From assembly GCA_022821985.1 (NCBI GenBank), contig JAJECP010000003.1, forward strand, positions 1 to 64,000: a DNA stretch of 64,000 nucleotides, written 5' to 3'. The translations under genes and the position numbers were made by a program. Positions 35,774-40,149 of the stretch are shown here, piece after piece. Each line of letters begins with the position of its first letter. Positions within the stretch are counted from its first letter, which is position 1. The notes under the pieces are model-generated. The model did not search any database, was not told where the DNA came from, and was given only the letters and a program-made list of their open reading frames with translations. The stretch comes from Acidimicrobiia bacterium (lineage in GTDB: Bacteria; Actinomycetota; Acidimicrobiia; Acidimicrobiales; Poriferisodalaceae).

Positions 35774-37021
35774 ATGAGTCGATCTCGACTTCCCACACCG
35801 TGGCGGCGCATTGCTCGCACAGCAGCAGCGGTCACGGCGGCAGTTTTGCTGGCGGCGGCTTGCACCGGCGGCGGCGACGGCGACGGCGCCGATGACGGCT
35901 TCGACGGCACGGTCCGCATCGGCGCGGCGCTGAGCGAAACGGGCCGATTCGCTGCCGAGGGCAAGGCTGTGCGCCAAGGCTACGACACCTGGCTGCAGTG
36001 GGTGAACGAGGAGCACGGCGGGATCCACGTCGGCGCTGGCCGCTACCGGGCCGAGATCATCTATTACGACGACGAGTCCGATCCCGACCGGGCAGCCGCT
36101 CTCATCGAGCAGCTCATCGACGAGGACCACGTCGACTTCTTGCTCGGTCCGTACTCCAGCACGCTCACCGGGCCGACCAGCGCTGCGGCGGAGGCCCGTG
36201 GCGTGATCATGGTGGAAGGCAACGGCGCGTCCGACAGCCTCTTCGAGCGGGGCTATCGCAACCTGTTCTATGTCGGTGTCGTCGCCTCGGACTACACACG
36301 CTCGAGCATCGAGCTGCTCGCCGAGCGCGGTGCGACCACCGCTGTGGTGGCTCACGAAGACACTCCGTTCGCCACGTCGGTGGCACAGGGAGCGCAGCGC
36401 CACCTTGAGGCCAACGGCGTCGAGGTGCTGGCGATGAAGAGCTACCCGGTCGGCGTCGAGAGCGTCGACGATCTCATGACCGAGCTTGCGGCACTCGAGC
36501 CCGACATCTTCGTGGGCGGCGGCCACTACGACGATGCCGTGCTGTTCCTGCGCTCAGCACAAGAGCAGGGCTTCCGCCCCGACGCGATGCTCATCACCGT
36601 CGGCCCGGCCAACCCGCAGCTGATCTCCGACATCGGCAGCGGCGCCGACGGCGTGCTCGGCCCGACGGGGTGGGAAGCGGTGATGGCCTATGAGGGCCCG
36701 AGCTTCGGCACGGCGAGTGCCTACGCCGACACCTACCAGAGCCTGTGGGATGAACCGCCCATCTATCAGGCAGCGGGGGCAACTACGGCCGCGATCGCGC
36801 TGCACCGCGCCATCGAGGCTGCCGGCAGCCTCGACACCGATGCGGTGCGCGAGGCGCTGCGAGACCTCGACATCGACACCTTCTACGGCCCGGTTCGTTT
36901 CGACGAGCGCGGCGTCAACGTTGCCAAGCCGATGGGGATCGTGCAGGTACAGGACGGCCGGATTGTGCTGGTCGCCCCTGCCGATGCGGCCGAGGGCGAG
37001 CTGGTTTACCCGGCGCGCTAG
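35774..37021 (+). CDS. ABC transporter substrate-binding lipoprotein (LivJ / amino-acid type)
   Basis: A 415-residue extracellular ligand-binding receptor of the branched-chain amino acid type. It has an Arg-rich n-region, a hydrophobic stretch and LLAAACTGGG as lipid-attachment Cys (the -3 residue is Ala, slightly off consensus). The mature part has VRIGAALSETGRFAAEGKAVRQGY, LLGPYSSTLTGPTSAAAE and a C-terminal DIDTFYGPVRFDERG, all typical of periplasmic binding fold type I. No permease or ATPase genes adjoin. ATG 35774 follows GGAGG. Confidence 0.87.
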   Translation: MSRSRLPTPWRRIARTAAAVTAAVLLAAACTGGGDGDGADDGFDGTVRIGAALSETGRFAAEGKAVRQGYDTWLQWVNEEHGGIHVGAGRYRAEIIYYDDESDPDRAAALIEQLIDEDHVDFLLGPYSSTLTGPTSAAAEARGVIMVEGNGASDSLFERGYRNLFYVGVVASDYTRSSIELLAERGATTAVVAHEDTPFATSVAQGAQRHLEANGVEVLAMKSYPVGVESVDDLMTELAALEPDIFVGGGHYDDAVLFLRSAQEQGFRPDAMLITVGPANPQLISDIGSGADGVLGPTGWEAVMAYEGPSFGTASAYADTYQSLWDEPPIYQAAGATTAAIALHRAIEAAGSLDTDAVREALRDLDIDTFYGPVRFDERGVNVAKPMGIVQVQDGRIVLVAPADAAEGELVYPAR

Positions 37022-37587
37022 CGCCCCATCGTGAAGAACTCGTCGTTGGGCCGCATGGACGTCAGGTGGGCCATGCGGTTCGACAGGGCGAACAGTCCCG
37101 TGATGGCGCCGATGTCCCAGATGTCATCGTCGCTGAAGCCGTGGGCCTGCAGATCCTCATGATCTGTGGCCGAAGCTGACCACGGTTCGCTGCACATCTT
37201 GAGGGCGAAATCGACCATCGCCCGTTGCCGGTCGGTGAGATCGGCCTTGGACGGGTCGACAGCGAGCTGATCGGCCAGCAGCGGATCCTTGGCGCGGATG
37301 CGCAGGATCGCGCCATGGGCCACTACGCAATACAGGCAGTTGTTGGCCCCGCTGGTGGCCACCACGATCATCTCCCGCTCGGCCTTGCTGAGCCCGCTCG
37401 GACCCTCCATGAGCGCGTCGTGGTATGCCATGAATGCCCGCATCTCCTCGGGCCGGTGCGCCAGCGCAAGGAACACGTTCGGCACGAAGCCGGTCTTGGA
37501 CTGGATGAGCTCGATTCGCTCTCGCAGGTCGTCGGGCATGTCCGCGATGTCGGGCACAGGGAAGGTCGAGATGGCTGGCTCGGTCAT
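37018..37587 (-). CDS. AhpD-like peroxidase-related protein (carboxymuconolactone decarboxylase fold)
   Basis: A 189-residue protein of the uncharacterised peroxidase-related family: KTGFVPNVFLALAHRPE, AFMAYHDALM, then the AhpD-type redox motif NNCLYCVVAHGA with a Cys-x-x-Cys and a downstream His. The family reduces peroxides or disulfides with a CxxC proton relay. It converges with the binding-protein gene with a 4-base overlap and is divergent from a second protein of the same fold. Confidence 0.85.
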   Translation of the reverse strand: MTEPAISTFPVPDIADMPDDLRERIELIQSKTGFVPNVFLALAHRPEEMRAFMAYHDALMEGPSGLSKAEREMIVVATSGANNCLYCVVAHGAILRIRAKDPLLADQLAVDPSKADLTDRQRAMVDFALKMCSEPWSASATDHEDLQAHGFSDDDIWDIGAITGLFALSNRMAHLTSMRPNDEFFTMGR

Positions 37588-37661
37588 GCCCGCAGCCTAA
37601 GCACGGCGGCGCATGGGCGACCCTCCTACAGTCGCGGGACTGACGAGAGGACTGCCCGCCG

Positions 37662-38231
37662 ATGCACCTGCCACGACCCACTTCCCGACGCCTTGAGCCG
37701 ATCCCCAAGGTGGCCGAGCGAGCCCGCGAGGCCATGGAGAGTTCATTCGCCAACGCCGTCAACGTCATTGCGACCATCGCGCACAGCCGTCCCATCTCCA
37801 AGGCGTTCGGCGAGTACGCGCTGGCCATCTTGTACAAGGGCGATCTGTCGCGTCGCGACGTCGAGATTGCCGTGCTGCGCATGGGCTGGAACTGCCAGTC
37901 GGTCTACGAGTTCGGCCAGCACACGCTGATCGCCCAAGCCGAGGGCATGACCGACGAGGACGTCTACCTCGTCACCCGGCCGATTGCCGAGGGCAACTGG
38001 ACGCCGGCCGAGGCGGCGCTGCTGCAGGTGGTGGACGACCTGTACTCCGACGACTGCGTGTCCGATGCCACTTGGGCCGAAGCGGTTGCCCACTTCAGCG
38101 AAGCCGAGATGGTGCACCTCATCGCGGCATCGGGCTGCTACCGGATGGTGAGCGGGCTGCTCAACAGCACCGGAGTGGAACGCGACGAAGGGGTCCCCGG
38201 CTGGCCCACCGCGCCGACCGCTACTGGCTGA
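37662..38231 (+). CDS. carboxymuconolactone decarboxylase family protein
   Basis: A 189-residue all-helical CMD-fold protein with VEIAVLRMGWNCQSVYEFGQH, the decarboxylase-type pattern (single Cys, Tyr-Glu and His) in place of the AhpD CxxC. It would bind a small lactone or acid, or act in an unknown redox reaction. Its 3' end overlaps the convergent carbonic anhydrase gene by 11 bases. Confidence 0.82.
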   Translation: MHLPRPTSRRLEPIPKVAERAREAMESSFANAVNVIATIAHSRPISKAFGEYALAILYKGDLSRRDVEIAVLRMGWNCQSVYEFGQHTLIAQAEGMTDEDVYLVTRPIAEGNWTPAEAALLQVVDDLYSDDCVSDATWAEAVAHFSEAEMVHLIAASGCYRMVSGLLNSTGVERDEGVPGWPTAPTATG

Positions 38232-39129: not shown

Positions 39130-40149
39130 GTGAGCGCTGAAACTGTTGCTGCCCGCCAGCCGCCCGTGGAGTACATCCCCAGGATCACTGCCCAGTACAT
39201 CGGACTCGGTTACGGCGAGTACCGCTGGGTGCACAGCGAGACGCCGCCGCCGTGGACACCGCTGACCAAGCCGATCTCGGAGTGCCGCGTCGGACTGATC
39301 GCGACCGGCGGCGTCTATGCCGTCGGCCAGACGGCGTTCCACTACCGCGACGACGCGACCTATCGGGCGATCCCGACCGACGTCGATACGCCCGAACTGC
39401 GAGCGACGCACTTCGCCTATGACCTGACCGATGCCCGCTCCGACATCAACTGCGTGTTCCCCATCGAGGCTCTGCGTGCCCTGCGAGACAGCGGCGAGAT
39501 AGGCGAGCTGGGCCCGAACGCCTACACCCTCATGGGCGGTATCTACAGCACCCGGCGTGTGCGTGAGGAACTGATCCCCGAGCTGGCGAAGCGCTGCGTG
39601 GCCGACGAGCTCGACGTGGTGCTCCTGGTGCCGGTGTGACCGGTCTGCCATCAGACCGGGGGTCTGATCGCCAGGGCCATCGAGGCCGAAGGAATCCCGA
39701 CGCTGTCGATGTCGAGCGCACGCGACATCACCCGGGCGGCCTGGCCGCCCCGGTCGGTCTATCTCGACTACCCGCTGGGCCACACCTCGGGTCGTCCTCA
39801 CGAGCCGGAGCTCAACCAGCAGATCCTGCGTGACACGCTGGCCGCCTTCGAGAACTTGCGCGTGCCGGGTTCCATGGCCCACTTGCCGTACCGCTGGTCG
39901 GACACTGACCGGTGGAAGGACCGGGTGTTCGCGCCATCCACCAAGGCCGAGGAGCTGCCCGAGTGCGCCGTGCCGACCGCAGACGACTCCGCCGAGGCGA
40001 GCGCTGAGTCAAGCGGTAACGGCGGCTACGAGGACGACCGTGTCGAGCGCCACCCGACGCCGCAATACCAGTCTGAAGACGACGCAGCAGCGGCTCGCGC
40101 CAGCCATGACGGGGAAGAGTGCCTCGTCTGTGCGGGCATCGACTACTGA
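39130..40149 (+). CDS. GrdB/PrdB-like selenoprotein with in-frame UGA (Sec170)
   Basis: A 339-residue protein of the glycine/sarcosine/betaine reductase selenoprotein B superfamily, read through TGA 39637-39639 as selenocysteine. Before it: CRVGLIATGGVYAVGQ, ATHFAYDLTDARSDINCVFP, LMGGIYSTRRVREEL, DVVLLVPV. After it, in the same frame: PVCHQTGGLIARAIEAEG and YPLGHTSGRPHEPELNQQIL. The active motif is Sec170-Pro-Val-Cys173, and Cys-containing relatives carry Cys at this position. The C-terminus adds an acidic tail ending in Cys331-x-x-Cys334. Stem-loops at 39640-39668 fit a bacterial SECIS. GTG start at 39130. The substrate is unknown; a selenol reductase role is inferred. A Nudix gene follows 18 bases later. 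Confidence 0.85.
39640..39668 (+). promoter_or_regulatory. candidate bacterial SECIS element
   Basis: Two perfect, mutually exclusive hairpins begin right after the UGA. Stem A is CCGGTCTG (39640-39647), loop CCAT, CAGACCGG (39652-39659). Stem B is ATCAGACC (39650-39657), loop GGG, GGTCTGAT (39661-39668). Stem B places a 3-base G-containing apical loop 18 bases after the UGA, within the usual bacterial SECIS limits (loop about 16-37 bases downstream with a G among its first two bases). SelB would bind it during translation. Confidence 0.75.

Follow-up and report, generated by a model that had tools for sequence, protein, structure and literature searches.

In the Stickland enzymes, the selenocysteine (Sec) nucleophile is contributed by PrdB or GrdB, and the amine substrate is bound by a second, pyruvoyl-type subunit. 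GrdB, GrdF and GrdH, the selenoprotein B subunits of glycine, sarcosine and betaine reductase, act with a pyruvoyl partner and with GrdA. For D-proline reductase, a UxxC motif and a prdB-prdC operon are noted in the accessible part of a 2026 review (PMC13188914), which, like the accessible part of a review from 2022 (PMC9312934), places PrdB under D-proline reductase. A GrdB-like selenoprotein of Cloacibacillus, FarB, has been proposed to defluorinate fluoroacetate by attack on the C-F bond, and the same source, as far as its text is accessible, discusses Schiff-base chemistry and Sec as a nucleophile (PMC10838667). Counts of selenoproteins in seawater metagenomes also place PrdB-type proteins among the most frequent. 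In excerpts of the two surveys, ‘proline reductase PrdB’ with a UxxC motif was the third most abundant selenoprotein family of the 2005 Sargasso Sea set, with 42 genes (PMC1088965), and the PrdB family of the GOS metagenomes, pfam07355, comprised 235 Sec members and 110 Cys homologs (PMC2398784).

Here we describe what we judge to be a real, widespread and apparently partnerless variant of the PrdB family, encoded in a 64,000-nucleotide stretch of actinobacterial DNA (hereafter, the window). According to the same excerpts, PrdB-type proteins are named after clostridial amino-acid fermentation, for which the window’s genome shows no partner genes. The host is likely marine or sponge-associated, the link to sponges being inferred, and we infer that the marine PrdB selenoproteins of the Sargasso Sea and GOS sets very likely include the window’s group. 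Because PrdB-family selenoproteins have been known from the sea since 2005, a record that an earlier, sequence-only reading of this locus missed, the selenoprotein kind itself is not new.

The gene, its in-frame UGA and the selenocysteine machinery

The sequence-only reading had proposed one selenoprotein gene of the GrdB/PrdB superfamily, in a single frame broken only by one TGA, and the sequence bears out this frame (Table 1). Read as U, the TGA yields a 339-residue product with U170 and C173 in the context LLVPV-U-PVCHQT. P171, V172, C173, H174 and Q175 are invariant across 63 aligned Sec, Cys and Thr relatives; outside this alignment, two loci (L043 and L044) have UPLDHQ in place of UPVCHQ. 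The protein scores above the cut-off of the Pfam GRDB model (PF07355, 29.9 bits against 22, residues 44-167), in keeping with the proposed superfamily. The best NCBIfam model is PrdB (TIGR04483, residues 38-256), at 168.3 bits short of its cut-off of 300, and TIGR01918, TIGR01917, NF040794 and NF040795 give 44.9-50.4 bits against cut-offs of 65.45-800, none of them reached. The protein is therefore a superfamily member that scores above the cut-off of no listed NCBIfam family.

Table 1. Features of the PrdB-like locus, in window positions.
Feature	Position	Strand	Remarks
PrdB-like selenoprotein gene, 339 residues	39130..40149	+	GTG start, TGA stop 40147-40149
In-frame TGA, residue 170, very likely selenocysteine	39637..39639	+	TGA at aligned codon in relatives
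Cys173 of Sec-x-x-Cys, in UPVCHQ	39646..39648	+	Conserved in aligned relatives
SECIS-like hairpin	39650..39668	+	8-pair stem 39650-39657 / 39661-39668, loop 39658-39660
C-terminal extension, residues 257-339	39898..40146	+	Beyond end of TIGR04483 match (residue 256/339)
C-terminal CLVC, Cys331 and Cys334	40120..40131	+	Five residues from protein end

We searched 61 genomes, the window’s own (G000) and 60 relatives. A homolog at E <= 0.001 was present in 43, each with at least one match bearing an in-frame TGA. Close orthologs, defined by E <= 1e-80 and counting the window itself (identity 48-100%), occurred in 25 of the 61, each carrying a single TGA, at the window’s codon, with the downstream part conserved in frame, as expected if coding continues past the TGA. 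Among the best 80 of at least 578 relatives from named genomes, the aligned codon was TGA in every case; being best matches, these provide no measure of the Sec:Cys ratio of the family. Among them are Acidimicrobiia, Gammaproteobacteria, Binatia, Deltaproteobacteria, Myxococcota, Chloroflexi and acidobacterial lineages. Alignment at residue 170, the position singled out by the sequence-only reading, shows that close relatives have U there and other relatives C or T. A sequencing error or a reassigned UGA was rejected, since the TGA recurs in 25/25 close orthologs and the gene’s own stop is TGA; judging from these alignments, chance or sequencing error is no workable explanation of the in-frame TGA.

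The protein catalogue breaks such sequences in two at the UGA. All 88 short proteins P0118-P0205, from a list of 120 out of 1269, have VPV as their last residues, as does the part before the TGA in the window, these proteins being known as protein sequences only. The downstream halves are entered as ‘hypothetical protein’, some under Candidatus Poriferisodalis, a genus of Acidimicrobiales near which the window’s genome probably belongs. Five full-length proteins (P0005, P0012, P0017, P0020 and P0107) carry Thr at the Sec position and keep the rest of PVCHQ, a combination whose function is puzzling. In P0054 and P0060, of 443 residues each, an alpha/beta hydrolase is fused to an N-terminal PrdB-like part ending in VPV; these fusions look natural, the UGA would fall at the VPV end, and they are a possible clue to the substrate. 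Fusions with CoA-transferase or TRAP genes (P0076 and P0077) are joined mid-domain and were judged by eye to be chimeras.

A predicted hairpin of the bacterial SECIS type is found directly behind the UGA. Counted from the T of the TGA, the stem joins bases 13-20 to bases 24-31 and encloses a three-base loop, which begins 18 bases past the UGA; bacterial SECIS loops are expected 16-37 bases from it. Across 76 distinct sequences (the 80 relatives and the window, less five repeats), 582 of 608 cells are paired, and none of 2000 shuffles, which ignore the kinship of the sequences and average 535 paired cells, reaches that number. Sliding the register by 1-4 bases leaves at most 49% paired, versus 96% in the true register (75 sequences, window omitted). 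Compensatory changes occur at two pairs. Pair (18,26) is T-A in 44 and A-T in 29 of the 76 sequences, so that the third base of a codon that is mostly GGA or GGT (Gly) changes in step with a Ser/Thr codon at its first base. At pair (17,27), G-C occurs in 58, A-T in 13 and G-T in 5, which links the synonymous changes CAG/CAA and CTG/TTG. In 31 relatives (the window and 30 of the 80 loci), the five hairpin codons have a normalized diversity of 0.41, compared with 0.78 for 102 other codons. In the window itself, a competing hairpin (CCGGUCUG/CAGACCGG), which cannot form at the same time as the first, gives the better isolated fold. Only 2/80 relatives keep all eight of its pairs and the other 78 keep 4-7, so this alternative is not the conserved hairpin.

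The genome also encodes the machinery for Sec insertion. A tRNA-Sec was found at 66.3 bits against a cut-off of 47, with anticodon TCA by ARAGORN, and profile searches recovered selA (383 bits), selB (274 bits) and selD (355 bits); with the same models, 5, 1, 2 and 2 of 14 known control genomes came out above cut-off for tRNA-Sec, selA, selB and selD, respectively. All four components that the sequence-only reading had proposed looking for are thus present. A second match to the tRNA-Sec model, on contig C1, is barely above cut-off at 48.4 bits. selA exceeded its cut-off in 42 of 43 genomes with a UGA-bearing homolog versus 7 of 18 without one (Fisher p 8e-7 for 61 mutually related genomes, with kinship ignored), and in all 25 genomes holding a close ortholog; the single UGA-homolog genome without it (G037) is 84% complete.

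The window’s genome holds two further UGA-bearing paralogs, absent from the sequence-only reading. One, L132 (G000:C6:47547-48419, minus strand), is PrdB-like, with an in-frame TGA (UPVCHQT), no terminal CxxC and 93 bits to TIGR04483; the other, L133 (G000:C23:49615-50181, plus strand), is GrdB/PrdB-like, with an in-frame TGA (UPLCTRT) and 107 bits. As selD itself contains an in-frame TGA (L135, G000:C10:4396-5349, GUACK), the genome has at least four predicted selenoproteins. In G003, a genome of the same genus that is 98% complete, selA and weaker UGA paralogs are present and a close ortholog was not found, which reflects either recent loss or an assembly gap.

Taken together, codon conservation, the RNA hairpin, the Sec machinery and the co-occurrence with selA indicate that the UGA at residue 170 is almost certainly decoded as selenocysteine. 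This supports the earlier proposal of one selenoprotein gene read through a UGA.

A cysteine pair near the C-terminus

The match to the PrdB model stops before a stretch of about 83 residues, which includes a DxR..R..TPQYQ region aligned in relatives and ends in SHDGEECLVCAGIDY. The CxxC in this ending was missed by the sequence-only reading; with catalogue entries broken at the UGA, this tail and its association with Sec easily go unnoticed. A CxxC lies within the last 45 residues of 79/81 Sec forms (the 80 relatives and the window) and of 0/56 full-length non-Sec forms (52 Cys, 4 Thr), the Sec set having been taken from the best genome matches and the non-Sec set from a protein catalogue, so that the two were not sampled alike. 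Eleven further full-length proteins from the non-Sec search also have no CxxC tail, with the site unparsed in three. Left out of the count were P0030, P0051, P0059 and P0074, in which the site is misparsed or unusual and CxxC is absent from the last 70 residues, as well as proteins shorter than 280 residues and proteins ending at the UGA. For L116 and L127, the sequence counted was that up to a second TGA, taken as the real stop, and L034 was scored as tailed with one masked residue within the motif.

The placement of the pair is also conserved. Exactly five residues follow the CxxC in 39 of the 79 tailed Sec forms and at most 12 in 77, the two outliers having 14 and 25. C-terminal fragments drawn from the protein catalogue, whose genomes overlap those of the 80 relatives, show the same feature: 115/120 (the best 120 of 207, the window’s included) have a CxxC, followed by exactly five residues in 115/115. 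Judged from where they start, these fragments would sit behind a UGA. By eye, three of the remaining five look cut short and two look frame-shifted. The flanks and inner letters of the motif vary across phyla and the cysteines are kept (CLVC, CPTC, CPGC, CEVC, CRAC).

Across these alignments, then, CxxC near the C-terminus tracks Sec. Sec does not require the tail, since three Sec forms (L100, L120 and L042) and the Sec paralog on contig C6 of the window’s genome are tailless. In L043 and L044 (UPLDHQT), the vicinal Cys of UxxC is Asp and the tail CxxC is absent, leaving no obvious resolving thiol. On a tree, three changes are needed for Sec and three for the tail, with a single independent pair on starred branches; the association is thus strong by number of rows and thin by number of independent events.

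Partner searches and gene neighbourhoods

The window’s genome assembly is 89.9% complete. PF09338 (Gly_reductase), which we take to cover the pyruvoyl-type partner B subunits, had no match in 36 of 37 genomes searched (G000 and 35 of 36 relatives), including all 19 searched genomes with a close ortholog. The search itself works, as shown by a clear match in G045 (7e-98). In that genome, from a relative of the same taxonomic order (contig C77, L136), the PF09338 subunit is followed after about 0.8 kb by a weak GrdB-like match containing a UGA, an arrangement that looks like a GrdE-GrdB pair. Neither PrdA (TIGR04480) nor GrdA had a match in G000, and neither search found anything in any control genome; for PrdC, G000 gave two weak matches below 31 bits against a cut-off of 490. 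The earlier statement that no prdA or grdA partner is near the gene is consistent with the lack of a PrdA, PF09338 or GrdA match in G000, with the reservation that the PrdA and GrdA searches were silent in the controls. A COX1-type oxidase in G000 (512 bits) agrees with the description of the host as an apparently aerobic actinobacterium.

Neighbouring genes were surveyed at the 80 loci, in flanks of up to 8 kb, with the 40 largest clusters listed and 10 proteins scanned. Among those 10, the neighbours recurring across phyla were enoyl-CoA hydratase (16 of 80 loci), acyl-CoA dehydrogenase (11) and SDR (9), which we take to be common families. A NUDIX gene follows in 14/14 of the nearest loci; FolE, further on, is kept in 13/14 as well, so the NUDIX gene reflects general synteny, and neither was found in the other 66 loci. 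We therefore set aside the neighbours as a guide to function, and no clue to the substrate was seen among them at the 80 loci. Two divergent AhpD-like CMD proteins are encoded at 37018-38231 of the window, 0.9-2.1 kb upstream of the gene; such genes occur in only 5-6/80 loci, the nearest ones. With no match to PrdA or PF09338, PrdC matches under the cut-off and common families among the scanned neighbours that recur across phyla, we agree with the sequence-only reading that the PrdB-like selenoprotein probably acts alone.

Proposed mechanism, alternatives and known systems

We lean, by a modest degree, towards reading the protein as a Sec-containing, PrdB-like small-molecule reductase that works without PrdA, PrdC or GrdA and whose site is re-reduced by its own Cys331-x-x-Cys334 arm. 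This reading draws from the sequences the UGA, the hairpin, the Sec machinery, the superfamily, the CxxC tracking Sec and the lack of a PrdA or PF09338 match in G000; the arm’s role, the substrate and the redox steps are its conditional part. The Sec170 selenolate would attack an activated carbon-heteroatom bond (C-N, C-S or C-halogen), and each turnover would leave a Sec170-Cys173 selenenylsulfide. The terminal dithiol of Cys331 and Cys334 would then resolve this bond, taking over the part of PrdC or GrdA, and could itself be re-reduced by thioredoxin or a comparable donor. That the terminal dithiol re-reduces the Sec-x-x-Cys site is a step we consider probable. For the substrate class we favour, tentatively, reductive cleavage of an activated carbon-heteroatom bond, with FarB as precedent. 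An already activated substrate appears more likely than D-proline, as no pyruvoyl partner to bind an amine was found. The retained Sec, the missing partners and the terminal dithiol together suggest a concrete mechanism and point to a new selenium-dependent reaction in oxidase-bearing bacteria.

Some of the same evidence could be read differently. The gene might encode an ordinary D-proline reductase PrdB whose PrdA was lost in assembly gaps or has diverged too far to be seen. The best curated model is indeed PrdB, but its 168 bits are far below the 300-bit cut-off, PF09338 is absent from 36 of 37 genomes, including all 19 with a close ortholog, PrdA has no match in G000 (though no control responded) and some 83 residues ending in CxxC extend past the model; we rate this as very unlikely. 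Still less credible, to the point of being negligible, is a UGA that acts as a true stop, with a functional 169-residue product and the remainder a relic or separate gene. The splitting of the catalogue proteins in two would fit such a stop, but the downstream part is conserved in frame in 25/25 close orthologs, the hairpin covaries and the genome has the Sec machinery.

The greater competition for the small-molecule reductase comes from a thiol-disulfide or peroxide-defence selenoprotein, in which Sec-x-x-Cys and the tail dithiol would reduce peroxides or protein disulfides. Sec-x-x-Cys with a terminal dithiol resembles a redox relay, the genome bears an oxidase and the AhpD-like proteins are encoded close upstream; however, the known members of the GrdB/PrdB superfamily cleave substrate bonds, and AhpD-like genes are confined to the few nearest loci, which makes this role unlikely, if the most plausible of the alternatives. 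Rather less plausible is a terminal CxxC that binds metal or serves as a docking tag, with no redox role. CxxC pairs often bind zinc, and the window’s protein has a His five residues ahead of Cys331, as do many Acidimicrobiia at a similar place. Against this, there are only two cysteines, tails such as GECPGCVFL and EVCEVC have no such His, and the role is disfavoured because it leaves unexplained why the CxxC is missing where the site is Cys or Thr.

If the small-molecule reductase with its own arm is the right reading, it may be one example of a broader, self-sufficient class: a partnerless PrdB-fold found in several phyla, with Sec-x-x-Cys and its own dithiol arm, Sec and arm gained and lost together, that reductively cleaves activated small molecules (halogenated or quaternary ones, for example) aerobically. 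We regard this generalization as doubtful, a speculation prompted by the pattern as a whole.

In their accessible parts, the marine PrdB surveys name their set by family, with no mention of an actinobacterial host, partner status or tail, and give no function beyond D-proline reduction (PMC1088965, PMC2398784); the C-terminal dithiol, the missing partners and Acidimicrobiia hosts are likewise not mentioned in what is accessible of these papers or of the reviews. We did not find a description of the partnerless, dithiol-tailed PrdB variant in the literature searched. That search, whose scope left most subscription journals outside and which leaves absence unproven, returned no account of PrdB with a C-terminal CXXC, and none on selenocysteine or selenoproteins with the term Acidimicrobi- or for Poriferisodal-. 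Solved structures gave no relevant match to the window protein.

Compared with known systems, the protein resembles D-proline reductase PrdB of Stickland clostridia in its superfamily, its Sec-x-x-Cys and an alignment over residues 38-256. It differs from PrdB in its score (168 versus 300 bits), in its C-terminal extension ending in CxxC and in its setting, an oxidase-bearing actinobacterium whose genome has no PrdA match and no PrdC above cut-off. With FarB it shares the GrdB superfamily, Sec and a proposed carbon-heteroatom attack on a compound other than an amino acid, whereas FarB, in the accessible text, comes from an anaerobe and from a four-gene operon with a GrdE-like partner, farE (PMC10838667). 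With GrdB, GrdF and GrdH it shares PF07355 and the Sec site, but their models span 431-435 positions versus 339 residues here, its scores are far below their cut-offs, and neither a pyruvoyl partner nor GrdA was found in G000, the GrdA search having responded in no control. Thioredoxin reductase, ribonucleotide reductase R1 and mercuric reductase pass electrons to a buried site through a pair of thiols or selenols at the C-terminus. The PrdB-like protein is unrelated to these enzymes, to which we liken it from general descriptions, and its parts are placed differently: here Sec is internal and the dithiol is terminal.
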